Under the pieces are notes generated by a model that was not told where the DNA came from, ran no database searches, and saw nothing but the letters and a program-made list of their open reading frames with translations. The position numbers and the translations under genes are program-made. A stretch of 64,000 bases of DNA from Halomarina oriensis (lineage in GTDB: Archaea > Halobacteriota > Halobacteria > Halobacteriales > Haloarculaceae): assembly GCF_009791395.1 (NCBI RefSeq), contig NZ_WSZK01000009.1, positions 1 to 64,000 on the forward strand, given 5' to 3'. Positions 23,833 to 39,382 of this stretch are shown here, piece after piece (within the stretch, counting starts at the first letter, position 1; each line of letters starts with the position of its first letter).

Positions 23833-24795
23833 ATGGTCAACAAATCGCAGTTAGCCCAGAGCAAGTCGATTCACCGGCGAACTGGGAAGACCTTCTACTT
23901 TGCGACGAGAGTCCTGCCCGAGCGGGTTCGACAGTCCACGTACGTACTCTACGCGTTCTTCCGTATCGCCGACGAGGTCGTCGACGACGAGGACAACCAG
24001 CTCACGCCGGCCGAACAGCGCGAACGGCTGGAGGCGATTCGCTCCGTCGTCCTCGGCCACGAACCGACCGACGACCCGGTGTTGCAGGCGTTCTGTGAAC
24101 TCCGCGAGGAGCAGGGTATCAGCGACGAGGAGGTGAACGTCTTCGTCGACGCGATGCTGACGGACGTCGAGAAGACCCGCTACGCGACCTACGACGAACT
24201 GGAGACGTACATGCGCGGGTCGGCGGCCGCCGTCGGCGAGATGATGACCACCGTCATGTCGCCGACGCCGGAGGACGACGAACGCGCTCGACCCCACGCT
24301 CGGGCGCTCGGCGAGGCGTTCCAACTGACGAACTTCGTCCGCGACGTGCGCGAGGACGTCCGCGACCGGGGTCGCATCTACCTCCCACAGACGACGCTCT
24401 CGCGTCACGGCGTCACCGACGAACAGGTCGAACGTGCCGAGTTCGACGAGAACGCTCGCGCCGCGGTGCAGGAGGAACTACGCCGCGCGGAGGGACTCTA
24501 CCGCGAGGGCGTCGAGGGAATCAAGTACCTCCCCGAGGACTGCCAGTTCGCCGTCCTGCTCGCGTCGGTGCTCTACGCCGACCACCACCGGGCGATTCGT
24601 CGCCACGACTACGACGTCTTCTCGGCGACGCCACAGCTCAGTACTCGCCGGAAGGTCGCCCTCGTGCTCAAGACCCGCGCGTACTGGGCGCTCTCGAAGG
24701 ACCCCGAGTCGGTGTTCGCCCGCGTGAGCGCCATCCCGATGACCGACGAACGACCACAGGGCCGCGAGGCGGGCGACCCACGCCCCGTCCAGTAA
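23833..24795 (+). CDS. crtB: Phytoene synthase
   Basis: 320 residues. Trans-isoprenyl diphosphate synthase (squalene/phytoene) signatures: VLYAFFRIADEVVDDEDN with the first Asp-rich motif, and AFQLTNFVRDVREDVRDRGR followed by IYLP with the second. The enzyme condenses two GGPP molecules into phytoene, the first committed step to the C50 bacterioruberin made by the crtD-lyeJ-cruF cluster just downstream. AT-rich boxes at 23788-23796 (AAGGCATAAG) and 23811-23820 (ACTTTATACC) precede ATG 23833; the first gives the better spacing. The C-terminal tail is Arg/Pro-rich. Confidence 0.95.
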   Translation: MVNKSQLAQSKSIHRRTGKTFYFATRVLPERVRQSTYVLYAFFRIADEVVDDEDNQLTPAEQRERLEAIRSVVLGHEPTDDPVLQAFCELREEQGISDEEVNVFVDAMLTDVEKTRYATYDELETYMRGSAAAVGEMMTTVMSPTPEDDERARPHARALGEAFQLTNFVRDVREDVRDRGRIYLPQTTLSRHGVTDEQVERAEFDENARAAVQEELRRAEGLYREGVEGIKYLPEDCQFAVLLASVLYADHHRAIRRHDYDVFSATPQLSTRRKVALVLKTRAYWALSKDPESVFARVSAIPMTDERPQGREAGDPRPVQ

Positions 24796-24834
24796 CGCCC
24801 GACACACCGACCACTGGGGCTCGTCCTCCCTGTT

Positions 24835-25374
24835 TCACTCCGCGCGCCGCTCGTCGCGCAGCGCCCGAATCACGTCCTCACGAGTGACGATGCCGACCAG
24901 GGCACCCGCCTCGGTCAGGACGGGCAGTCGGTTGATTCGGCCGCTCAGCAGGTCGAGGATGCGGTCGATGTCGTCGTCGGGAGCCACGGTGACGACGTCG
25001 GTGCTCATCACCTCGCGGACGGGTTTGTTCACGTTGCGCGCGAGGTCCACACCCAGGTCGAGGTCGTCCCACGACACGTCGACGGCGTACTTCACCGTCT
25101 CCGTGAACGGCGGGAGGCCGACGGGAATCCAGAGGACGCGCTCTTCGGTCTGGAACAATCGGACGAGGTCACCCTGCGTGACGATGCCGACGAGTTCACC
25201 GTCGTCGCCGGAACGCGATGCGTTCCGGCTGCCAGTGGAGCGTTGCTCCACGCTGTCCAGGACGGGAAAGCCGTTGAACTCCGCTTTCGCCAGTTTCGAG
25301 AGCACGTCGCCGACCTCGTCGTCCGGGGCGACCACTTCGACGTCCTGCGTCATCACGTCGCGTGCGGTGAGCAT
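24835..25374 (-). CDS. Two-CBS-domain protein with a palindrome-encoded insert
   Basis: 179 residues, a CBS pair: MLTARDVMTQDVEVVAPDDE at the start and PVREVMSTDVVTVAPDDDID, then RINRLPVLTEAGALVGIVTREDVIRAL. CBS pairs bind adenosyl ligands and regulate partner proteins. In the first CBS domain the turn between GFPVLD and ELVGIVTQGDL is enlarged by ~18 Ser/Arg/Asn residues (VEQRSTGSRNASRSGDD), encoded by two adjacent perfect palindromes at 25208-25228 and 25235-25251. The gene is convergent with crtB and followed by the cruF end on the same strand; no evidence links it to carotenoid control. Confidence 0.9.
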   Translation of the reverse strand: MLTARDVMTQDVEVVAPDDEVGDVLSKLAKAEFNGFPVLDSVEQRSTGSRNASRSGDDGELVGIVTQGDLVRLFQTEERVLWIPVGLPPFTETVKYAVDVSWDDLDLGVDLARNVNKPVREVMSTDVVTVAPDDDIDRILDLLSGRINRLPVLTEAGALVGIVTREDVIRALRDERRAE

Positions 25375-25440
25375 ACTCGGTCGGTTCGACCGGGCGTGGG
25401 GTAGCCGTTTGGGTGGGCGACCGGCCTCGCGGAGGGTCGA

Positions 25441-26319
25441 CTACCGTCCGATGTACTGGAGCGGCGTCGTCCCGCGCACGTCGAAGTCGAAGCGGTCGGT
25501 CCACAGCAGGCCGAGGCCGAACAGCGCGGCGACGGCGACGGGAACCCAGTTCGTGTAGAACGCGTTGATGAGACCCCAGAGGATGACGAAGCTCACCAGG
25601 TCGTCGAGCATGAACTCGCACTCGCGGACCCGTCGGAGCAGGCCGCTCCGCGAGAAGCCCCAGTCGAACGCCAGCACCGACACCGTCGCCGAGAGCACCC
25701 ACCCGAGGTAGTTCGAGACGGGGACGCCGTAGTAGACGCCGCCGGCGTCGTACGCCCAGAACTGGACGGCGACGGCGGCCGGGTCGAGCACGAGGTCCAT
25801 CGCCACGACGGCCGCGACGGCCACCGGAAGGCGGACGAACCACCGGTCCGCTCGGTCGCCGAGCGACAGCAGACAGAGCAGGTAGCTGTTGAGCACCAGC
25901 GGGAAGAAGAACACCGGCAGGGCCACCGGGATGGTGTCGAACAGCATCGGCCCGAGTTCGACGGTGTACTCGAACGCGCCGTACGGTTCGCCGGTCGTCA
26001 CGCCCAGATACTCGATACCGTAGGCGTAGCCCGCCAGCGCGAGCAGGGCGGTGGCGGCCTTCCGGTCGACCAGCGGCGCGACGCCCGCGACGAGCGGGAG
26101 ACGCATCACGACGACGCCGAAGAGGACGAAGTAGGGGTTGAACTCCAGGAAGCGTAGGGGGCGCGGGAACCAGCCCTCCGCGCTGGCGACGAGCGAGAGC
26201 GCCCCGACCAGCGGGAAGACGACCGAGATGGTGAAGCGGTTCTCCTCGACGAGCGTGTCCAGTCGGTCCTCGACGTGGTCACGACTCCACTCGCGGGTGG
26301 TCGTCGCTCCCTCGGTCAT
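25441..26319 (-). CDS. cruF: Bisanhydrobacterioruberin hydratase
   Basis: 292 residues, about seven membrane helices. It matches CruF/DUF422-type carotenoid hydratases: GYAYGIEYLGVTTGEPYGAF, VALPVFFFPLVLNSYLLCLL, AMDLVLDPAAVAVQFWAYDAGGVYYGVPVSNYLGW. CruF adds water to the C50 chain ends in the last step of bacterioruberin synthesis. It is the third gene of the crtD-lyeJ-cruF operon, 42 bp after the lyeJ stop, the order known from Haloarcula japonica. The asparagine/aspartate residues in DLVLDPAA are likely catalytic by family comparison. Confidence 0.9.
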   Translation of the reverse strand: MTEGATTTREWSRDHVEDRLDTLVEENRFTISVVFPLVGALSLVASAEGWFPRPLRFLEFNPYFVLFGVVVMRLPLVAGVAPLVDRKAATALLALAGYAYGIEYLGVTTGEPYGAFEYTVELGPMLFDTIPVALPVFFFPLVLNSYLLCLLSLGDRADRWFVRLPVAVAAVVAMDLVLDPAAVAVQFWAYDAGGVYYGVPVSNYLGWVLSATVSVLAFDWGFSRSGLLRRVRECEFMLDDLVSFVILWGLINAFYTNWVPVAVAALFGLGLLWTDRFDFDVRGTTPLQYIGR

Positions 26320-26361
26320 CGACGACCCTCGCTGGCCGTCCCGTCGACCGAACGCCGCCGT

Positions 26362-27237
26362 TCACCCATACAGCATCACCCACAGCCCCGCCATCGTGAT
26401 GACCGCGCCGACGACGGTGTTGATGGCGGGGTACCACCAGTAGGCCTCGTTCACGTCCACCGACGACGCGGCGATGCCGAAGACGATGACCGGGTAGACG
26501 CCGAGGACGACGGCGAAGAACGGGTGGACGACCCAGAACGCGGCGGCGGCGGCCGCCCAGCACAGTCCACAGTAGACGTAGGTTCGGCGTTCGCCGAGCA
26601 GCGTCGCCGTCGTGCGGACGCCCGCCGCGCGGTCCGGGTCGATGTCCGGAATCGCCGAGAACGTGTGCATCCCCATCGCCCAGAGCCACCCGCCGACGAC
26701 CGCCGCGACCGGCGGGTACTCCCCGGCCAGCGCGGCGAACGTGACGACTGCGGGGAGGACGTACAGCCCGTTCGACAGCGAGTCGAGAAACGGCGTCGTC
26801 TTGAACCGGAGCGGTGGTGCGCTGTACTCCACCGACAGCACGCCCCACGCGAGGAAGGCGAGGAGCGCGGCTTCGGGGAGCACGAACGCGAACGGGAGCG
26901 CGAGGAGTCCACAGACCACCACGCTGGCGACCACGAGTCGGCCGCCGCGATAGCGCACCTCGCGGCCCTCCTTCTTCTCGTTGAACGCGTCGATGTCGGC
27001 GTCGAAGACGTCGTTGACGCCGTAGAGCAGGACGTTCGCCGGGAGCAGGAAGTACGCGAACAGCGCGAGTGCGACCGGCGAAATCAGGTCCGCGGGCACG
27101 GACGCCGCGTAGGTCGCCCCGACGACGACCGGTCCCGCGAGGTAGAACCAGAACCGGGGGCGGGACATCCGGAGCAGGTAGCCCAGCCGCGACTCCTCGG
27201 GCGGGAGGACGTCACGGATACCCGTCGCCAGTTCCAT
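26362..27237 (-). CDS. lyeJ: Lycopene elongase/1,2-hydratase (UbiA family)
   Basis: 291 residues from ATG 27237 (a GTG lies one codon earlier). The UbiA prenyltransferase Asp-rich motif is LYGVNDVFDADIDAFNEKKE, and the second is AIPDIDPDRAAGVRTTATLL. LyeJ adds C5 units to both ends of lycopene with hydration, leading to C50 carotenoids. Start and crtD stop share a base (TGATG), a sign of translational coupling. About eight helices are predicted, consistent with a membrane enzyme. Confidence 0.95.
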   Translation of the reverse strand: MELATGIRDVLPPEESRLGYLLRMSRPRFWFYLAGPVVVGATYAASVPADLISPVALALFAYFLLPANVLLYGVNDVFDADIDAFNEKKEGREVRYRGGRLVVASVVVCGLLALPFAFVLPEAALLAFLAWGVLSVEYSAPPLRFKTTPFLDSLSNGLYVLPAVVTFAALAGEYPPVAAVVGGWLWAMGMHTFSAIPDIDPDRAAGVRTTATLLGERRTYVYCGLCWAAAAAAFWVVHPFFAVVLGVYPVIVFGIAASSVDVNEAYWWYPAINTVVGAVITMAGLWVMLYG

Positions 27238-28760
27238 CACTCCTCCTCTACGAGCGCGTTCGCCGTATGCTCACCGCTGATGAGACACATCGGGACGCCG
27301 ATACCCGGCGTGGTGTAGCCGCCGGTGTAGTAGAGGCCGTCGAGCGCTTTCGAGCGGTGGCGCGGGCGCAAGAGCGCGGTCTGCCGGAGCGTGTGGGCGA
27401 GGCCGCCGAGCGCGTTGCCGTCGTAGGCGTTGTAGCGGTCGGCGAAGTCGTTCACCGAGAACTGCTCCTCGAAGACGATACGCTCGCGCAGGTCGACGCC
27501 CGTGTGCTCTGCGAGGTCCGCCAGCACCGTCTCGCGGTACTCCGCGCGAATCTCGGGCGTGTCGTCCAGGCCGGGCGCGATGGGGACGAGGACGAACAGG
27601 TTCGAGTGGCCCTCGGGGGCGACGGTGTCGTCGGTCACGCTGGGCGCACAGACGTAGTACGCCGGTTCCTCGGGCCAGCCGGGGTCTTCGAAGATGCGCT
27701 CGAAGTGCCCCTCCCAGTCGGTCGGCAGGACGAGCGTGTGGTGGGCCAGCGGGTCGATGTCGCCCTCGACGCCCATGTACAGCAGGAACGCGGAGGGCGA
27801 GTAGGTCTTGGACTCCCAGTAGTCGTCGTCGTACTGGCGCTCGTGTTCGGGCAGCAGTTCGCGCTCGACGTGGGCGTAGTCGGCGTCGCTGACGACGTGG
27901 TCCGGGCGGTAGACCTCCCCCGTGACCGTCTCGACGTGGAACCCCGACTTGCGCTTGGTTATCTCGACCACCTCGCTGTCGGTGACGAACTCCACACCGA
28001 GTTCCTCGGCGAGTTCGACGATTCCGTCGACGACGACGCCGATACCGCCACCGTCGCGGTCGTCCGCTTCCTTCCGGACGGGGTACCAGACGCCCATGTT
28101 GAAATCGACGTGACTCATGATGTTGTAGAGCGCCGGCGTGTTCGACGGCGCGCCACCGAGGAACACCAGCGTGTACTGCATCAACTGCTGGAGTTTGGGG
28201 TGGTCGAAGTAGTCGCTCACGTAGTCGTCCATCGTCCCGACGAGTTTCAGGCCGATGGGTGCGGCCTTCATCACGTCCGGGTCGACCCAGTCGCGCAGGC
28301 GCGGCCGGTCGGTGTAGACGAAGTCGTCCATCGCCGTCTCGTAGTGGCGTTCGCTCGTGTCGAGGTACTCCAGCAGTGCGCCGCCCGCGCCCGTCTCGTA
28401 GGTCTCGAACGTCTCGACCATCGCCTCGACGTCCGGCAGGACGTCCATCCGGTCGCCGTCCTTCCAGAACACGCGGTAGTGCGGGTCGAGACGTTCGAGG
28501 TCGTAGTAGTCCGTCGGCGACTTCCCGAACTGTGCGAAGAACCGCTCGAAGACGTCGGGCATGAGGTACCACGACGGCCCCATGTCGAAGGTGAACCCGT
28601 CGGCTTCCAGCCTGGACGCTCGTCCGCCCACCTGCTCGTTTTTCTCCAACAGCGTCACGTCGGCCCCGTCGCGGGCGAGGAAACACGCCGCCGACAGCCC
28701 ACCGAACCCACCGCCGACCACGACCACCTCGCGGTCGCGGAGGGCGTCTCGTTCGCTCAT
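27237..28760 (-). CDS. crtD: Carotenoid 3,4-desaturase
   Basis: 507 residues. FAD-binding VVVVGGGFGGLSAACFLARDGADVTLLEKN at residues ~11-40, then GGRASRLEADGFTFDMGPSWYLMPD, and a C-terminal FAD region YTGGYTTPGIGVPMCLISGE, all typical of phytoene desaturase-type oxidases. In haloarchaea CrtD desaturates the C3,4 positions of the C50 intermediate in bacterioruberin synthesis. It is first in the operon with lyeJ and cruF. A CTTTTAGAC box 26 nt before ATG 28760 implies leaderless transcription of the operon. The frame extends upstream but the extra sequence is basic and Ser/Arg-rich. Confidence 0.95.
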   Translation of the reverse strand: MSERDALRDREVVVVGGGFGGLSAACFLARDGADVTLLEKNEQVGGRASRLEADGFTFDMGPSWYLMPDVFERFFAQFGKSPTDYYDLERLDPHYRVFWKDGDRMDVLPDVEAMVETFETYETGAGGALLEYLDTSERHYETAMDDFVYTDRPRLRDWVDPDVMKAAPIGLKLVGTMDDYVSDYFDHPKLQQLMQYTLVFLGGAPSNTPALYNIMSHVDFNMGVWYPVRKEADDRDGGGIGVVVDGIVELAEELGVEFVTDSEVVEITKRKSGFHVETVTGEVYRPDHVVSDADYAHVERELLPEHERQYDDDYWESKTYSPSAFLLYMGVEGDIDPLAHHTLVLPTDWEGHFERIFEDPGWPEEPAYYVCAPSVTDDTVAPEGHSNLFVLVPIAPGLDDTPEIRAEYRETVLADLAEHTGVDLRERIVFEEQFSVNDFADRYNAYDGNALGGLAHTLRQTALLRPRHRSKALDGLYYTGGYTTPGIGVPMCLISGEHTANALVEEE

Positions 28761-28781
28761 AGATGGACGACGCCGGGAACC

Positions 28782-28791
28782 GTCTAAAAGG
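28782..28791 (-). promoter_or_regulatory. TATA box of the crtD-lyeJ-cruF operon
   Basis: CCTTTTAGAC on the minus strand, centred 26 nt before ATG 28760. Confidence 0.5.
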
Positions 28792-28893
28792 GGGCTGTTC
28801 GGTCCGGTACCGAGCCACACGATACCCCGGTTCGGTCGCACGTCGTCGTTCCGCTTACACAACGGCCAAGCGCTCGCCGTGCGTTGGTTCGGT

Positions 28894-29592
28894 ATGGACG
28901 CAACGACAGTCGTCGTCACCGGCGCGAGTCGAGGACTCGGCGAAGCGGTCGCCCGGCGGTTCGCCGAGGAAGGAGCACACGTCGTCCTCTGCGCTCGGGA
29001 CGCCGACGCGGTCGAGTCGGTCGCCGAATCCATCCGGGAGGAGGGCGACAGCGCCACGGGCCTCCGCGCGGACGTGCGCGACGAGTTCGACGTGGAGCGG
29101 CTGATGGAGGTGGCCGCCCGCGAGGGCGAGGCCGGCGGTGTCGACACGGTCGTCGCCAACGCGGGCGTCTACCACGGCGAGACGGCGAAGACGCCGCTGG
29201 CCGAGGACGCCTACAGCGCCTTCGACCAGCACTACCAGACCAACGGCCGTGGCGTGTTCGCCGCCGTCAAGGAGGCGCTGCCGCATCTGAACGACGACGC
29301 GCGAATCCTCGTCCCCTCGGGGAGCGTCGCCGTCGACGCCACGCCCGGCCTCGGGTCGTACGCCGCCTCGAAGGCGTTCGCCGAGGCGCTGGTCCGACAG
29401 TTCGCCGTCGAACTCGACGCGACGGTCGGCGTCGTCGACCCCGGTCAACTCGCCACCGAACTCACCGGCGGCGCGGGCCGGGACCCGACCGACGTGGCCG
29501 ACCAGTTCCTCTGGGCGGCGACGGAGGCCCCCACCGAGGACCTCGACGGCGGCCGCGTCGACCTGAAGACCTGGAAACGGGCCACGCACTGA
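28894..29592 (+). CDS. Short-chain dehydrogenase/reductase
   Basis: 232 residues from ATG 28894. NAD(P)-binding VVVTGASRGLGEAVARRFAE at residues ~6-25, VDTVVANAGVYHG, catalytic Ser in LVPSGSVAVDA and YxxxK in GSYAASKAFAEALV. It is slightly short of the 250-residue norm, with the C-terminal substrate loop reduced. SDRs reduce or oxidise alcohols and ketones; the substrate is unknown. It is divergent from crtD, but no link to carotenoid synthesis is shown. The next gene starts 46 bp downstream from its own TATA box. Confidence 0.9.
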   Translation: MDATTVVVTGASRGLGEAVARRFAEEGAHVVLCARDADAVESVAESIREEGDSATGLRADVRDEFDVERLMEVAAREGEAGGVDTVVANAGVYHGETAKTPLAEDAYSAFDQHYQTNGRGVFAAVKEALPHLNDDARILVPSGSVAVDATPGLGSYAASKAFAEALVRQFAVELDATVGVVDPGQLATELTGGAGRDPTDVADQFLWAATEAPTEDLDGGRVDLKTWKRATH

Positions 29593-29638: not shown

Positions 29639-30508
29639 ATGGGGATTACCGAAACCGTCGATAGCAACACCGGTCTGGGTCGTCCCTCGTGGGTCGGCGT
29701 CACCGCCGTGGCGCTCCTGCTGGGCGTCACGGGACTCGCGCTCTCGGCGGGCCTCTGGAAGGTGACGGTCATCTCGTGGGTCGCGTTCGTGGCGATGGCC
29801 GTCGCCATCCCGCTGGGGGTTCGTGCGGAGGGGAGCGTGAACGCCCGCCGTCTCGTCTGGGGGTACGGCCTCGCCAGCGGCGCGATGCTCACCAGCGCCG
29901 CCGCGTTCATCGTCCCGCAGGCCATCGGTCTTCACCCCAAACTCGGCGGGTTCGGCATCGCCGCGGGCGTCGTCGTCGGCTTCGGCGGCCACACGCTCGG
30001 CCACCGCGTCTCGCACCTCGACCTGCCGTTCGACAGCACCGCCGCCCAGATCTCCGCGCACGCACTCTCGGCGGGCCTCGTCATCGGACTCATCTACGGG
30101 TCGATGCCCGACGTCGGCCTGCTGCTCGGCCTCGCAATCGTCTCGCACAAGGGACCGGCAGGCTACGCCTCCGCCCGCCGACTCGTGCGCTCGGGGCGGT
30201 CGCCGTGGGTCGTCCTCCTCCCCGCCGCGGGTGTCGGCATCGCCGCGATTCCGGGTGCGTACGTCGGTCTCCCGAGCGTCACGACGCTGAACGCGTTCGT
30301 CTTCGGCTTCGCCGCGGGCATCTTCCTGCACGTCGCGCTCGACTTCCTCCCCCGGTGTGAGGTCGGGAGCGAGGTGACGGAGGTGGCGGGCATCACCGAA
30401 CACGACCACGCACTGCTCGACCGCCTGCGCAGCCACGCCGTCCTCTCGACGACGGTCGGTGCGGTCGTCGTCTTCGGGGCGTGGACCGCGCTCAACGGCG
30501 GCTTCTGA
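29639..30508 (+). CDS. ZIP-like membrane protein (metal permease family)
   Basis: 289 residues, about eight hydrophobic helices. The layout resembles ZIP transporters: a metal-motif helix AQISAHALSAGLVIGLIYGS, followed by LGLAIVSHKGPAGYASARRL, and a C-terminal FAAGIFLHVALDFLPRCEVG. In canonical ZIPs the two motifs read HNxPEG and HEIPEG; here they are HALSAG and HKGPAG, so the metal-binding acids are missing. The histidines in GGHTLGHRVSHLDLP may contribute. I call it ZIP-like, and the transported ion, if any, is unclear. Confidence 0.6.
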   Translation: MGITETVDSNTGLGRPSWVGVTAVALLLGVTGLALSAGLWKVTVISWVAFVAMAVAIPLGVRAEGSVNARRLVWGYGLASGAMLTSAAAFIVPQAIGLHPKLGGFGIAAGVVVGFGGHTLGHRVSHLDLPFDSTAAQISAHALSAGLVIGLIYGSMPDVGLLLGLAIVSHKGPAGYASARRLVRSGRSPWVVLLPAAGVGIAAIPGAYVGLPSVTTLNAFVFGFAAGIFLHVALDFLPRCEVGSEVTEVAGITEHDHALLDRLRSHAVLSTTVGAVVVFGAWTALNGGF

Positions 30509-30575: not shown

Positions 30576-31961
30576 TCAGTTCCGGGGGGTCGCCACGCGC
30601 TCGCGGACCACGAGGTCGAGTCCGTCCTTCGGGGCGAGCGTCGCCCCGAACCGGAGTTCCAGTGGGTCGTCGGTCACGGGGTCGAAGGTCACCTGCTGGG
30701 CCATCGTCGCCACGACGAGCTGGAGTTCCTGTACGACGAACCGTGCCCACTCGCCTGCCCGTTCGCCGCCGCCGAACGGGAAGTACGCGTACTCCGGGCC
30801 GTCCCACGTCGCCCAGCGCTCGGGCCGGAACGTCTCGGGCGCGGTGTACCAGCGGGGGTCGTTGTGGACGACGTACTGCGACGTGACGACGGTGGTGTCG
30901 GCGGGTATCTCGTAGGTCGCCAGTTCGGCCGTCCGCGTCGGCCGCCTGACGGTCGCGTACAGCGGCGGATAGCGCCGTAGCGACTCCGTGACGACGCGCT
31001 TCGTGTAGCCGAGTGCCGGGCGGTCCTCGGCGGCGGCCGACCGCGGGCCGAGGACGGCGTCGACCTCCGCGCGGAGTCGGTCGGCGACGCCCGGATGCGT
31101 CGCCAGCGCGTGGGCAGTGAACGTCAGCGCCGCCGCCGTCGTCTCGTGGCCGGCGACCAGCGTCCGCACGAGTCGGTCGCGTATCGCCACCTCGTCGAGT
31201 TCCCGGCCCGCCGACCCGACCCGCAACAGCGTGGAGAGGACGTCGTGGCTCCCGTCGTCGTCGCTCGCCCGTCGTCGTTCGACCACCTCGTCGACGACGT
31301 GCTCGAACTCGGCGAGCGCTCGGCGGTACTGTCGGTTCGGCCGCGTCGGGACCCATCCGGGGACGAGACCGCTCGGCGAGCGGGTGTCGACCGCCTCGTC
31401 GAACGCGTGGACGGCCGCTCGCAGTCGCTCGGTGTCGCCGGACCCCGGTTCCCCGACGGCTCCGCCGAGGTCGGAGAGGCGCTGGCGGTGGTCGACGTCG
31501 ACACCGAACAGCACGTCGATGAACACGTCGAGGGCCAGTTCGCGCATCGCCTCGTCGACGGCGACGACTTCCCCGTCGTCCCAGAGGGCGGCCATCGTCT
31601 CGGCGTGACGCACCGTCGCCGTCGCGTACTCCGGCACGTAGCCGGTGTCGAAGAGCGGTGGCGGCGTCGAACGGGGGTGTCGCCATCGGTTCCCGGCGAC
31701 CAGCGCCATCCCGACGTCGAACACGCCGGCCCGCTCGGGGTTGGAGTCGAGTCGGCGGTAGTTCGCCGCGTCGTCGACGAGCACCTGCCGGATGAGGTCG
31801 GGGTGCGAGACGACGTAGAGGTCCTCACGGCCGATTCGGGCACGGACCACGTCGCCGTACTCCGCACAGACGCCGTAGAACCCTACCGGGTCCCGAACGA
31901 ACTGGAGCGTGTTTCCGAGCCCCGGCAGTCCGTCGGGACCGGGCGGGCGGCCGCTGCTCAT
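30576..31961 (-). CDS. Cytochrome P450-fold protein lacking the heme-ligand cysteine
   Basis: 461 residues with the P450 fold: proline-rich start RPPGPDGLPGLGNTLQFVRD, I-helix AGHETTA (270-276), ExxR motif ESLRR (326-329), the PERW segment (380-383) and the heme loop FPFGGGERAGEWARF (394-408). In a normal P450 the loop is FGxGxRxCxG. Here the Cys position is Gly 403 and the Gly two residues later is Trp 405, with no gap in the alignment. The C-helix (WRHPRSTPPPLF) also departs from the usual W-x-x-x-R-r-l. Heme could still bind with another ligand or not at all, so monooxygenase activity should not be assumed. The acidic reading frame is intact. Confidence 0.85.
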   Translation of the reverse strand: MSSGRPPGPDGLPGLGNTLQFVRDPVGFYGVCAEYGDVVRARIGREDLYVVSHPDLIRQVLVDDAANYRRLDSNPERAGVFDVGMALVAGNRWRHPRSTPPPLFDTGYVPEYATATVRHAETMAALWDDGEVVAVDEAMRELALDVFIDVLFGVDVDHRQRLSDLGGAVGEPGSGDTERLRAAVHAFDEAVDTRSPSGLVPGWVPTRPNRQYRRALAEFEHVVDEVVERRRASDDDGSHDVLSTLLRVGSAGRELDEVAIRDRLVRTLVAGHETTAAALTFTAHALATHPGVADRLRAEVDAVLGPRSAAAEDRPALGYTKRVVTESLRRYPPLYATVRRPTRTAELATYEIPADTTVVTSQYVVHNDPRWYTAPETFRPERWATWDGPEYAYFPFGGGERAGEWARFVVQELQLVVATMAQQVTFDPVTDDPLELRFGATLAPKDGLDLVVRERVATPRN

Positions 31962-32049
31962 TGGCTCTCTCTCGGGGTCCGGTTTGATAACAGTTCGTGC
32001 TACTGTCGGGGAAGCCGAGCGGTCGCGTCGCCACCCCGCTCCGCTCGGC

Positions 32050-33354
32050 TCAACCCGGTTCGACCGAGCAGGTGAAGTGTCGACTCCGGTTGGCGGCGAC
32101 GTACTCGTAGACGCGGACGCCGACCCACTCGACCGGGTGCCGGTCCATCAGCCACACCACCGGCCGGAACAGGCCGAACTGCCGGACGAGTTCGCGGAAC
32201 GCCGCGTAGCCAGCGTAGGGCGTGGCGTTGGAGGCAGTGGCCTCGCTGTCCGAGGCAGTGGCCTCGCTGTCCGAGGCGGCGGCCTCGCTCTCGACGAAGG
32301 CGTACATCGCCGCGCCGAAGTCGACGTCCTCGCGGCCCCGGTAGCGCTCGGGGACGTCCGACTGCGAGTAGAACGTCACCGTGTCGTTCACGTCGAGCAC
32401 CTTGAACGGGAGGAGACTCCGGGCACAGAAGTGACACCGGTCGTCGAAGACGACGTCGACCGACCGGTCGCTGGCGAGTCGCTCGTGGAGACGGTCCCAC
32501 GCGAGGAACGCACCGAAGACGAAGAACGCGTCGACGAAGATGATGTTGACCGTCACCAGCGTCCCGAGTTTCATCCCCAGCAACAGCACGACGGGGAGCG
32601 TGATGGAGCGACGGGTGAGGACGAGGACGAGGAGTCCGACCTCGGCGGCCAGCGTCGCCGCCGACATCGCGGCGATGAGTAGCGGATAGTCGAGCAACCG
32701 GACGCCCAGCGTGATGGGGAGGTCGTAGTGGACGGTGCGGAACAGGATGATGCGACTGAGATTCGACGGTGCGGCCCACGCCAGTCCGCTCTGGAGCAGT
32801 TTGTCGACGCCGGACCCGAAGTAGACGACGCCGATGGCGAGCAACGGCATCGTCAGCGCGTCGACCGAGTAGCCCCGGTCGAGCGGCGACTTCAGTCGGT
32901 CGACGACGGTGTCGATGGAGTCCGTCGCCGCGTGGCGGAACCCGTCGACGGTCAGCGCGTCCGGGTCGTGATAGAGACCCATGAACAGCAGCATGTAGAC
33001 GAAGAAGAACAGCACCGTCACCGGGCCGTGGGTCTTGAACAGGAACAGCACCGCCGTCTGGTGACCGAGCAACACGGCCGCGAGGAACGTCGAGAGGCGA
33101 AGTCGGTAGCCGACCGCCACCGCCAGCAGCGCCGCGACGAGGAGCCACTGCTCGGCGACGAGGACGAGAGGGTCCGGCGGCAGGAAGAACCGATACTCCT
33201 CGAAGAGGACGTACGGGGCCTCCGTGACCTCGAACCAGTCTATCCAGACGACGCGCCAGACGACGACGGCGGCGACGAGGACCCGCGCCAGCGCGAGGTT
33301 CAGCGGCGTCTCGCGCTCGGCGCTCCCGAAGTAGTTGACGACCCCGAACCTCAT
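32050..33354 (-). CDS. HTTM membrane domain fused to a DCC thiol-oxidoreductase-like domain
   Basis: 434 residues. Residues ~1-300 hold the horizontally transferred transmembrane (HTTM) domain related to vitamin K-dependent gamma-carboxylase, with about eight helices (FLAAVLLGHQTAVLFLFKTH, VLFFFVYMLLFMGLYHD, GVVYFGSGVDKLLQ). The C-terminal part begins VDVVFDDRCHFCARSLLPFK, the DxxCxxC motif of DCC/DUF393 thiol-disulfide proteins. Near residue 375 are three tandem copies of a 7-residue unit (EAAASDS/EATASDS/EATASNA) encoded by 21-bp repeats. The stop and start overlap the upstream gene (33351-33354), so the two proteins are likely made together, possibly as a membrane thiol-redox complex. Confidence 0.85.
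   Translation of the reverse strand: MRFGVVNYFGSAERETPLNLALARVLVAAVVVWRVVWIDWFEVTEAPYVLFEEYRFFLPPDPLVLVAEQWLLVAALLAVAVGYRLRLSTFLAAVLLGHQTAVLFLFKTHGPVTVLFFFVYMLLFMGLYHDPDALTVDGFRHAATDSIDTVVDRLKSPLDRGYSVDALTMPLLAIGVVYFGSGVDKLLQSGLAWAAPSNLSRIILFRTVHYDLPITLGVRLLDYPLLIAAMSAATLAAEVGLLVLVLTRRSITLPVVLLLGMKLGTLVTVNIIFVDAFFVFGAFLAWDRLHERLASDRSVDVVFDDRCHFCARSLLPFKVLDVNDTVTFYSQSDVPERYRGREDVDFGAAMYAFVESEAAASDSEATASDSEATASNATPYAGYAAFRELVRQFGLFRPVVWLMDRHPVEWVGVRVYEYVAANRSRHFTCSVEPG
32231..32293. repeat. Three tandem 21-bp palindromic units inside the HTTM/DCC gene
   Basis: Two identical 21-bp units (32231-32251 and 32252-32272) and one diverged unit (32273-32293) follow head-to-tail. Each has the short stem GAGGC/GCCTC around a 4-nt loop (GAGGCAGTGGCCTC). 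They encode on the minus strand the repeated residues ASDSEA/TASDSEA. In-frame length keeps the gene open. Confidence 0.75.
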
Positions 33355-34049
33355 CCCGCCACCTCGCTGGTGGCGACCGGTGGACAGTTCGCCGGTCGGG
33401 TGGCTGGCACCGCCGGTCCCGACTCCTGCCACTCGTCGACCCGGCGCTCGGAGTACGACTCGACTTCGGTGCCGGCCGCGTTCGTCGTCAGGTTCACCCG
33501 ATAGACGCGCACGGCGACGAACCGGTCGTACCGTTCGACCTTCTCCCTGGGCCACGTGGTGAAGCCGTGGGCCGGATACCGCAGGTACTTGCTCGGGGAG
33601 TCGGCCTCGACCTGCCTGCGGAACTCCCGGCTCTCGTCGAGCAGGTAGAGTGCGACCGTCCGACGCTTCTCGGCGGAGTACTCGGCGTACATCTCGTTCA
33701 ACAGCGGTTGCAGGGCGATGTTCTCCGCCTCGAAGGGCACCTCCCCGTCGACGCGAATCTCACACCCGCGCTCGTCGACGATGCGCATGGTGTGGTAGGA
33801 CTCCTCCGCGCTACGGGCGATGGAGAACTTGTGCCAGTGGAAGAAGGGGACGACGACCACCGACAGGACGAGGTTCACGAGAACCAGCGCGACGAAGAAG
33901 TTGACGACGTACGTCCGCCGCACCGTCGCGTTCTGACGGTAGTAGATGGCGACGCCCGCCGCGACGAAGAACCCGACGAAGAACAGCGGGAGCAACACCC
34001 CGACGTACGGTCGGAGCGGTCCGACGAACGCGACGACGTGACCGTTCAT
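33351..34049 (-). CDS. Membrane protein paired with the HTTM/DCC protein
   Basis: 232 residues. Two N-terminal helices (PYVGVLLPLFFVGFFVAAGVAIYY and VVNFFVALVLVNLVLSVVVV) are followed by an outer domain of ~150 residues with EVPFEAENIALQPLLNEMYA, YLLDESREFRRQVE and YDRFVAVRVYRVNLTT. I do not recognise the family. The last codons overlap the HTTM/DCC start by four bases (ATGA), so the pair is translationally coupled. HTTM genes in other prokaryotes are also often next to a small membrane partner; that context supports a joint function but does not define it. Confidence 0.7.
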   Translation of the reverse strand: MNGHVVAFVGPLRPYVGVLLPLFFVGFFVAAGVAIYYRQNATVRRTYVVNFFVALVLVNLVLSVVVVPFFHWHKFSIARSAEESYHTMRIVDERGCEIRVDGEVPFEAENIALQPLLNEMYAEYSAEKRRTVALYLLDESREFRRQVEADSPSKYLRYPAHGFTTWPREKVERYDRFVAVRVYRVNLTTNAAGTEVESYSERRVDEWQESGPAVPATRPANCPPVATSEVAG

Positions 34050-34266: not shown

Positions 34267-34587
34267 TCAGCTGTAGCCCCGCCAGCGGTGGCCACACTCG
34301 GTGCACTTGAAGAACCGTGTCGGCGGTTCGTCGGCGCTCCCGGTCTGTTTGATGGTGTACCACGCGCGGCCGTTGCCACACTGGTCGCACTCCTCCTCGG
34401 CGGTCGGCTTCCCCTCGTCGGCGGCGTCCTCGGTGGTCTCGATGACGTCGTCGAACGTCTGGGACTCGGTCGAGACGTACTTCGCGGCCTCCTCCTCGTC
34501 TTTGAGTACCCGTGCGCCACACGACGAGCAGACCATCTCCGCGTCGTCCGCGTGCATCAGAGAGCCACAGTCGTCGCAGAACTGCAT
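34267..34587 (-). CDS. tfs: Transcription factor S (TFS, RNA polymerase cleavage factor)
   Basis: 106 residues. The N-terminal zinc ribbon is CDDC...CSSC (Cys 4, 7, 20, 23) and the C-terminal ribbon CDQC...CTEC (Cys 67, 70, 95, 98). The catalytic acids Asp 86 and Glu 87 of the SADEP loop are present. TFS inserts this loop into RNA polymerase and stimulates cleavage of backtracked RNA. The residue that is normally Arg (QTRSADEP) is Gly 83 here (QTGSADEP). An ACTTTTGG box lies 27 nt upstream of ATG 34587. Confidence 0.95.
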   Translation of the reverse strand: MQFCDDCGSLMHADDAEMVCSSCGARVLKDEEEAAKYVSTESQTFDDVIETTEDAADEGKPTAEEECDQCGNGRAWYTIKQTGSADEPPTRFFKCTECGHRWRGYS

Positions 34588-34674
34588 GGCTGCCGTAGTC
34601 GCCCCCGACCCAAAAGTGCCCGGCCGAACGGCCGTCGACGGGGAAGCTATCCGGACGCCGACCGTATCGGTGAT

Positions 34675-35115
34675 ATGAACCCCACGAATCGGCCCGTGGC
34701 GACGTTGACCGTCTCCGTCGACGACGCGACGCTCTCGGTGACCACTTCGGAGTCGAAGCCGGTCGGAACGGAACTCCTCGGCCCGGACGTGGCCGGCGAA
34801 CTCCGACTCCGCGTCGACACCCACCGAACCAGCACCGACCGGCCCGACACCGACCGACAGACCGACCCACCGGAGGGCCACGAACCGACGGCAGACGACT
34901 CAGTCCGCGCGGACTCCGGAGCCCCCGAGACGGCGTCCAGTGCCCGGTTCGAGGTGTACGAGGACCGCGCCGGCGAGTACCGCTGGCGACTCGTCCACGA
35001 CAACGGGAACCTCATCGCCGACTCCGGCGAGGGCTACGCGACGTGGCAGGGCGCGGAGAACGGTCTCCGGAGCGTGAAGGCGAACGCGCCGAACGCGTCC
35101 GTCGAGCGACTCTGA
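34675..35115 (+). CDS. DUF1508/YegP-like domain protein with disordered N-terminal half
   Basis: 146 residues from ATG 34675. The C-terminal ~55 residues (ARFEVYEDRAGEYRWRLVHD, GNLIADSGEGYATWQGAENG, LRSVKANAP) match the DUF1508 (YegP) domain, a small beta-beta-beta-alpha fold of unknown role that often occurs in tandem pairs; haloarchaeal versions bear a single copy. The N-terminal half has a strand region (VATLTVSVDDATLSVTTSE) and then a Thr/Asp/Arg-rich disordered linker. It is convergent with thiD. Confidence 0.75.
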   Translation: MNPTNRPVATLTVSVDDATLSVTTSESKPVGTELLGPDVAGELRLRVDTHRTSTDRPDTDRQTDPPEGHEPTADDSVRADSGAPETASSARFEVYEDRAGEYRWRLVHDNGNLIADSGEGYATWQGAENGLRSVKANAPNASVERL

Positions 35116-37551: not shown

Positions 37552-39291
37552 TCAGGCGAGGAAGACGTGGCGCGGTCGGTCGGCGAGCACGTCGCGGCCC
37601 CACTGGACGGTCTCGCGGAAGGCGTCGGAGCCGAAGAACGCCATCGCGTCTTCCCGTGCGCGCCACTGGCTGGCGATGAACATGTCGTTCTCGTCGGCGA
37701 GGTTCACCATCAGGTCGGTCTCCCGGTGGCCCTCCATGTCCGCGAGCAGGCCGCCGACGCCGTCGAACGTCTCGACGAACTCCTCGCGGTGGTCGGGCTT
37801 GACGGTGTAGAACATCCCCATCGTCCCGAACCCGCTCTCCTCTCCGGCGCGAGCGACGATACCCGGGAGGTCCCCGAGGAACCCGGCGGCGGTGTCGGCG
37901 GCGCTCGCCGTCTCCCAGATGCTCACGACGGCGTGCCGGTCGGTCGCCCGACCCTCGTAGACGGCGGTGCGGACGTGAGTGTCGTAGCGGTCGAACCCCT
38001 CCGAGAGGTCGTCGACCGCTCCCGCGAGCGTCTCGCCGTCGGCCTCCGAGTAGAGGACGATGGCGTAGACGTCCTCGCCGTGGGGCTTCCCGGCGTAGAT
38101 GTCGAGGTCCGCGAGTTCGCCGCGAATCTCGTCTTCGGTCGTCTGCGCCGTGTCGTCGTGGTCGCTCGCACCTGCCCCGTCGCCGCCCCCGCCCAGTGGG
38201 CCGGTCTCGGTGTCCGTGACGCCCGGCAGGTCCGCGAGGAACCCGCTCGCGGTGTCGGCGGCGCTCGCCGTCGTCCACGCGCTCACGACGATGGTCTCCT
38301 CGTCGGTGGCGAGGACGTTCGTCAGGAGGTGGCTGTCGTAGTGCTCGAAGTTCCCGCGCAGGCTGTCGACGGCCTCCTCGACCGTCTCGGCGTCGCTCTC
38401 GCTGTGGACGAGCACCGCGTGGGCGTCCGCGGGGACGTCGAGGTCAACGCCGAGGGCGTCGAGGTCGCCGTACAGGCCGCGCTCCCCGCTCGACGCGTCC
38501 ACGCGTTCGCCGTCGGTCGGAATCGGGTCCCCGGCGAGCAGTGCCGAGAGGTCACTCGCGGGGAACCGTCGCCCGAAGTAGAACTCGCCGAAGTCGGCGT
38601 AGCGCGACGACGAGGGGTCGAAGCGCATCTCGTAGAGCAACTCTTTGATGTCGGTGGGGTCGTCGGCGAACAGCGTCACACCCCACTCGTAGTCGTCCAT
38701 CCCGAGACTGCCCGAGATGATCTGTTTGACCTTCCCTGCATACCCGCGGCCGATGTCGCCGTGACCCGCCATCAGGTCGGCGCGTTCGTCGAACGAGAGG
38801 TCGTACCAGTTGTACTCGGCGTCACGACGCTTGTCCATCGGGTAGAAACAGACGTGTTCGGCGTCGGGCAGGTCGGGGTAGATGCGCGACTCGATGTAGC
38901 GCTGGAGGCCGGTGTCGGCCGTCTCACCCTCCGAGAAGTACTCGCGTGCGGACTCGGAGTAGCCCGACGCCTCCGTGACCGAGACGTACGACGACGACTG
39001 GGTGGCGTAGTCCGCGAGGGTCGTCTGCTGGAACCGACGTTCGAGCGTGTCCAACTCGCGGGTGGTCGGCCGGAGGTGGAGTACCATGAAGTCGGCCTTG
39101 TGGCCGAGGACGGAGAAGACGGCCGTCCACCCCTCGCCGTCGTGGTCCTCGTGGGTGGTGAGGTACTCGACTCCCTCCTCCAGCGCACGTCGGCGCTTCT
39201 CCTCCGGGGCAGCACGCCACGCCGCCCAGTTGACTCGCCGGAAGTCGTGGAGCACGTACCAGCCCTCGTCGGTCCGCGGTGGTTCGGGCAT
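37552..39291 (-). CDS. pitA: PitA-type fusion: chlorite dismutase/coproheme decarboxylase-like domain, duplicated middle domain and ABM domain
   Basis: 579 residues from ATG 39291. Residues ~1-245 are a chlorite dismutase-family heme domain (GWYVLHDFRRVNWAAWRAAP; AGHGDIGRGYAGKVKQIISG with the probable heme His 177; MRFDPSSSRYADFGEFYFGR). Residues ~272-358 and ~391-480 are a clear internal repeat (WTTASAADTASGFLADLPG and WETASAADTAAGFLGDLPG). The last ~85 residues are an antibiotic-biosynthesis-monooxygenase-like domain (MGMFYTVKPDHREEFVETF). Haloferax PitA has the Cld plus ABM fusion; the duplicated middle is an extra feature to compare. It may work in heme synthesis or heme release. Confidence 0.9.
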   Translation of the reverse strand: MPEPPRTDEGWYVLHDFRRVNWAAWRAAPEEKRRRALEEGVEYLTTHEDHDGEGWTAVFSVLGHKADFMVLHLRPTTRELDTLERRFQQTTLADYATQSSSYVSVTEASGYSESAREYFSEGETADTGLQRYIESRIYPDLPDAEHVCFYPMDKRRDAEYNWYDLSFDERADLMAGHGDIGRGYAGKVKQIISGSLGMDDYEWGVTLFADDPTDIKELLYEMRFDPSSSRYADFGEFYFGRRFPASDLSALLAGDPIPTDGERVDASSGERGLYGDLDALGVDLDVPADAHAVLVHSESDAETVEEAVDSLRGNFEHYDSHLLTNVLATDEETIVVSAWTTASAADTASGFLADLPGVTDTETGPLGGGGDGAGASDHDDTAQTTEDEIRGELADLDIYAGKPHGEDVYAIVLYSEADGETLAGAVDDLSEGFDRYDTHVRTAVYEGRATDRHAVVSIWETASAADTAAGFLGDLPGIVARAGEESGFGTMGMFYTVKPDHREEFVETFDGVGGLLADMEGHRETDLMVNLADENDMFIASQWRAREDAMAFFGSDAFRETVQWGRDVLADRPRHVFLA

Positions 39292-39382
39292 TAGACGTCC
39301 TTGGAACGGACCGCTCAAGGGGTTTGTGAGTCCGCGGTGCGAGTCGGCCGTCGGTCGTCGTCCGGGAGGCCGGCGGGGGCCG

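Follow-up and report, generated by a model that had tools for sequence, protein, structure and literature searches.

The window analysed, a stretch of 64,000 bp of the Halomarina oriensis genome (contig NZ_WSZK01000009.1), harbors a gene for a P450-fold protein, which starts with ATG and terminates with a stop codon at positions 30576-30578 (Table 1). The deduced 461-aa protein matches PF00067, the P450 profile of Pfam, with 194 bits, residues 6-436 corresponding to positions 1-446 of the 462 of the profile, and on the basis of this full-length homology and of the ExxR and PERF/W motifs it belongs to the P450 fold and superfamily. The I-helix AGHETTA (residues 270-276) and the K-helix ExxR (E326..R329), both of which the first-pass annotation had reported as intact, were confirmed, and PERW proved intact as well. 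The position expected to carry the heme-ligating cysteine is occupied by glycine.

A search of eight Halomarina species revealed orthologs in two others, H. rubra and a third species, with 64-66% identity to the window P450; in the five remaining species, the interval between the ZIP transporter and zinc-ribbon genes yielded no such P450. In all three orthologous loci (hereafter, the trio) the P450 gene is bracketed by the genes of a ZIP transporter and a TFIIS-like zinc-ribbon protein, adjoining the bacterioruberin cluster. In the window, this bacterioruberin-type cluster (23833-29159) encodes a squalene/phytoene synthase (CrtB), a CBS protein, a CruF-type carotenoid protein, a UbiA prenyltransferase and a CrtI-type desaturase. 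The genes of a DCC1-like protein and a membrane protein separate the zinc-ribbon and P450 genes in the window genome only, the interval lacking both in the two sister species. The DCC1-like protein (32050-33555, minus strand) carries its DCC domain fused after a long membrane region; a short repeat, ASDSEATASDSEATASN, lies in frame within this domain. The membrane protein is encoded alongside at 33351-34049. Farther along the window (37552-39318, minus strand) lies a fusion of a chlorite dismutase-like domain (HemQ type) with an antibiotic biosynthesis monooxygenase domain, with thiamine salvage genes (ThiD/ThiM/ThiE types) nearby.

Table 1. Coordinates in the window of the P450-like gene, its motifs and its neighbors
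Feature	Position	Strand	Basis or remark
ZIP-family transporter, convergent neighbor, positional anchor	29639..30508	+	86-88% identical in the two orthologous loci
P450-fold protein gene without heme-thiolate Cys	30576..31961	-	461 aa, Pfam match
C-terminal tail, DGLDLVVRERVATPR, conserved in the trio, largely trio-specific	30579..30623	-	alignment
Heme-binding loop region, residues 396-405, FGGGERAGEW	30747..30776	-	residues 400-405 neutral in the trio
GGC codon, Gly403, axial Cys position	30753..30755	-	sequence
PERW motif, residues 380-383, intact	30813..30824	-	alignment
K-helix ExxR (ESLR), intact	30975..30986	-	alignment
I-helix, RTLVAGHETTAAA, residues 266-278	31128..31166	-	strongly conserved, omega 0.03 over residues 262-297
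C-helix segment, residues 89-106, degenerate throughout the trio, with one codon deleted in one ortholog	31644..31697	-	alignment
Promoter, inverted repeat ACAGT-N7-ACTGT overlapping TTATCA	31985..32006	-	conserved in three species
Genes of a DCC1-like thiol-disulfide domain protein and a membrane protein	32050..34049	-	locus comparison
TFIIS/RPB9 zinc-ribbon ORF, upstream anchor in H. rubra and the third species	34267..34881	-	locus comparison

The upstream region of the P450 gene is also shared by the trio. In all three species the first base of TTATC lies exactly 29 nt upstream of the ATG, and an inverted repeat (ACAGT-N7-10-ACTGT) overlies this TATA box. The counts for the TTA-extended repeat in the three genomes are two, three and one, and a search of these genomes for a second gene with the same inverted repeat before a substantial reading frame returned the P450 site only. 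The fixed spacing between TATA box and ATG, together with the inverted repeat, suggests a regulated and probably leaderless transcript with a putative operator.

Loss of the heme-binding motif

The loop of the window P450 reads FPFGGGERAGEWARF, with Gly403, Glu404 and Trp405, and thus conforms to the earlier description of glycine for cysteine and tryptophan for glycine in an FGGG-framed loop. The axial cysteine has been described as the sole invariant residue of P450s (PMC3990721). It was kept in 63 aligned and 60 additional sequences, that is in 123 of 123 other haloarchaeal P450s sampled, and the PROSITE pattern PS00086, which includes it (FxxGxRxCxG), is matched by all 63 aligned canonical haloarchaeal P450s and by none of the trio (0/3). 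Two candidates for further Cys-less P450s were dismissed: L144 (G409) appeared to end before the loop, but its full sequence, L165, has CIG, and in L157 the cysteine is present and only the PROSITE regular expression missed it.

The first-pass annotation had proposed to look by alignment for the same Gly-Glu-Trp in close relatives, where it was not found, the glycine variant being confined to the single genome of the window. Residues 400-405 are ERAGEW in the window protein, SANCIE in H. rubra and TRDYVG in the third species, where most relatives have PRHCIG, and no position of this segment is identical across the three orthologs. Both of its flanks, FPFGGG on one side and RF..QEL on the other, are kept throughout the trio. 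The H. rubra loop retains Cys and has lost Arg401 (replaced by Ala) and Gly405; in the third species Cys is replaced by Tyr, with Arg and Gly retained. A relative with Cys in an otherwise identical protein had been named as evidence against the loss, and H. rubra answers to this only in part: its cysteine is there, but since the Arg and Gly of the motif are lost, its protein is not a normal P450 either. No TGC or TGT codon was found in any frame of the loop DNA, and a compensated frameshift therefore cannot hide a cysteine.

Near the loop, no His, Cys, Tyr or Met that is both conserved in the trio and new to it could be found as a replacement heme ligand, the ligand position itself being Gly, Cys or Tyr. 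Cys32 was considered and rejected for this role: it is conserved in the trio but also present in 17 of the 63 canonical P450s.

The C-helix faces the heme from the same side as the Cys loop. Over residues 91-105 its mean pair identity is 24% in the trio versus 93% in a canonical P450 pair (L016/L017) from the same two sister species. The initial observation of cysteine loss thus holds but was incomplete, the C-helix having decayed too and the loop varying freely across orthologs. In the 63 canonical P450s, 84 columns show at least 85% conservation; 62 of them are unchanged in the whole trio, and the strongly conserved columns that show three different states in the trio all lie inside the loop and the C-helix (7/7; Fisher p 8e-7). 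By analogy with known P450 structures, W93, R97, R339 and R401 are presumably heme-propionate contacts; the window copy has all four, of which W93 and R339 are common to the whole trio. The contacts lost vary by species, R401 being replaced by Ala in H. rubra and R97 by Gln in the third species. The I-helix of the H. rubra ortholog reads AGYETT where the window copy has AGHETT.

Phylogenetic position

The trio forms one clade (support 100/100) on a long stem of 0.71, nested inside ordinary haloarchaeal P450s, and is set apart by, among other things, 55 signature residues, an insertion around residues 157-170 and the conserved C-terminal tail. Across the three loci the P450 is less conserved than its neighbors (64% versus mostly 80-90%). 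The canonical paralog L016 (G006)/L017 (G005) occurs in both sister species, about 45-50 kb from the P450 locus; no close counterpart was present among the P450 matches of the window genome, and G002 contains a C-terminal match only (L026).

Selection on the three orthologs

The three ortholog sequences were analyzed with our own implementation of a GY94 codon model (F3x4, base-composition corrected). For residues 400-405 omega could not be told from neutrality, at 0.97 (95% CI 0.43-5, where 5 is the upper limit of the grid), the borders of this segment and of the C-helix having been picked post hoc from the alignment; with the independent borders of the PROSITE-defined loop (396-405) it was 0.27 (p 0.008). 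The C-helix gave 0.46-0.48 (p 2.5e-9 for 0.46) and lies significantly below 1; the I-helix gave 0.03, and the protein outside loop and C-helix 0.10, far from 1 (LR 1694). The control pair L016/L017 yielded 0.002 for the loop and 0.013 for the C-helix, and three control sets 0.002 and 0.013-0.029, respectively. The rest of the protein had omega 0.05-0.07 in canonical P450 controls, so that the trio value is about 1.5-2 times as high. Nei-Gojobori estimates outside the loop and C-helix gave unsaturated dS values of 0.44-0.61 and dN/dS of 0.38-0.47, compared with dN/dS of 0.88-1.55 in the C-helix; in the control pair, dN in the loop was zero.

Per-branch omega for the rest of the protein was 0.097 for the window and 0.114 and 0.093 for the others, with no difference among branches (p 0.87). 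None of the three orthologs contains a stop or frameshift and, with omega of 0.10 outside the two segments, they do not qualify as pseudogenes; under neutrality, a simulation run to 0.3 substitutions per site accumulated 6.6 stops on average, and 0.2% of runs had none. A recent pseudogene is ruled out, as the window branch evolves like the other branches and no stops are present.

A proposed P450-derived pseudoenzyme

The observed motif loss in three orthologs, the neutral loop, the purifying selection elsewhere and the common position and promoter are best explained, with a probability that we put at roughly 0.6, by a full-length P450-derived pseudoenzyme, vertically inherited in one Halomarina subclade, that has ceased to depend on heme-thiolate chemistry. 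The Cys loop and the C-helix, which form the proximal heme site, would have come free of selection at a very early stage, perhaps already in the common ancestor, after which the proximal surface would have drifted separately in each species, the remaining fold and the distal I-helix side staying under purifying selection. Heme would be absent or dispensable in the trio protein, which may act by holding a hydrophobic ligand in its distal pocket, still retained, by binding a partner protein in the way EryCII does its glycosyltransferase, or by both. Given a heme loop that drifted freely in an otherwise well-preserved protein, the Halomarina proteins most likely work as binding or partner proteins and no longer as oxidising enzymes. 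Of the three options originally offered for the window protein (another heme ligand, a different function or a recent loss of activity), the second is thus favored and the other two are not: no alternative ligating residue is conserved, the position being Gly, Cys or Tyr among neighbors that share nothing, and the window-branch omega equals that of its intact relatives, with the promoter conserved. Several points speak against a pseudoenzyme. H. rubra keeps Cys-Ile, which makes thiolate ligation possible there; the oxygen-activation motif AGHETT is the best-conserved part of the protein, which would be odd without oxygen chemistry; and the presumed heme-propionate contacts have survived in part. 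The small number of sequences, three in all, is a further caution.

The retained residues are the strength of an alternative that we consider unlikely, in which heme is still bound without thiolate, by another or no axial ligand, and serves other redox or gas-binding chemistry through the I-helix acid-alcohol pair. The H. rubra cysteine and the well-kept acid-alcohol pair (AGHETT, omega 0.03) leave room for residual heme function, and the presumed propionate contacts that remain (W93 and R339 throughout the trio, R97 and R401 in the window protein as well) could mean that a heme pocket persists. Against it, the trio has in common no His, Cys, Tyr or Met in the vicinity of the loop that could be a new ligand, the ligand position holds three different residues in a loop that changes at the neutral rate, and different heme contacts are lost in different species. 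Variation of this kind could also mark the proximal face, on which P450s dock their redox partners, as a fast-changing interface with a variable partner; omega is elevated in both C-helix and loop, and the loop interval extends above 1. Such diversifying selection seems quite improbable, as no estimate is significantly above 1 and that of the C-helix is significantly below it, and three sequences cannot separate diversification from relaxation.

Simple decay, with the P450 function lost in the clade and the reading frame merely surviving, would agree with the low conservation of the P450 relative to its neighbors and with the raised omega of the rest of the protein. We give it a small chance: that omega is nevertheless far below 1 and no higher on the window branch, three frames are intact where neutral evolution predicts several stops, TATA spacing and inverted repeat are conserved, and decay should have relaxed the protein throughout and not just in two segments that face the heme. 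We regard as negligible the probability that the window gene is an ordinary P450 gene with a strain-specific mutation or an error of sequencing or assembly. An error at the GGC codon had been named beforehand as a possible refutation, and nothing favors it except that the glycine variant comes from one genome; the difference extends over several codons, no frame of the loop holds a Cys codon, the C-helix has changed as well, and the corresponding loops of two independent genomes are disrupted in other ways.

Comparison with known systems

The nearest precedent is EryCII, an activator of a glycosyltransferase, which lacks the cysteine and the C-helix but retains I, J, K, K' and L (PMC3391682). 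The P450-derived glycosyltransferase activators EryCII/DesVIII/TylMIII (TIGR04515) thus resemble the window protein in having a P450 fold that has lost Cys and kept I/K/K'/L (PMC3391682); the C-helix, lost in EryCII, is degenerate in the window protein. Membership of TIGR04515 fails on score (41.4 bits against a cut-off of 343), on the long N-terminal A'' helix region, for which a P450 profile match beginning at residue 6 leaves no room, and on the adjacent partner glycosyltransferase, none being present among the annotated neighbors at 22-44 kb of the window. In contrast to that family, the window protein is archaeal, derived from haloarchaeal P450s, and keeps AGHETT and ExxR. The best reading of these likenesses and differences is that the trio is comparable to EryCII/DesVIII but would have evolved independently, in archaea. 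Canonical haloarchaeal P450s of the same clade, such as L031, L041 and L016/L017, share 40-47% identity over the full length and the I-helix, ExxR, PERW and FPFGGG with the trio, but unlike it all have Cys and match PS00086.

Exceptions to the heme cysteine among P450s have been noted (Sezutsu et al. 2013, as cited in PMC4229089). They are like the trio in the loss of a near-universal residue. Insect P450s are reportedly among them. The available part of a survey of archaeal P450s, in which matches were screened for EXXR and CXG, reports no Cys-less full-length P450 (PMC9962201), and our literature search for Cys-less archaeal P450s found no report.

Deletion of CYP174A1, a predicted monooxygenase of Halobacterium salinarum, raises bacterioruberin (PMC6212597), which makes the carotenoid neighborhood of the window gene suggestive and no more; both are haloarchaeal P450s, set side by side here by description, and are tied only by the proximity of a carotenoid cluster. 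An isoprenoid or carotenoid ligand or partner, prompted by the location beside the bacterioruberin cluster, is a weak guess.

Significance

Somewhat short of an even chance, in our estimate, is the wider proposal that the trio constitutes an independently evolved archaeal lineage of heme-free P450-fold proteins, a ligand-binding or regulatory reuse of the fold in which the heme site is without detectable selection, the distal I-helix side is tightly constrained and the loop is still drifting in each species. The three natural states of the loop (Gly, Cys and Tyr) offer material for studying what becomes of the fold after heme dependence ends, in hosts related to the tractable model Haloferax. 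If true, a neutral loop within a selected fold would mean that in archaea, too, the P450 fold has uses for which heme-thiolate chemistry is not needed.
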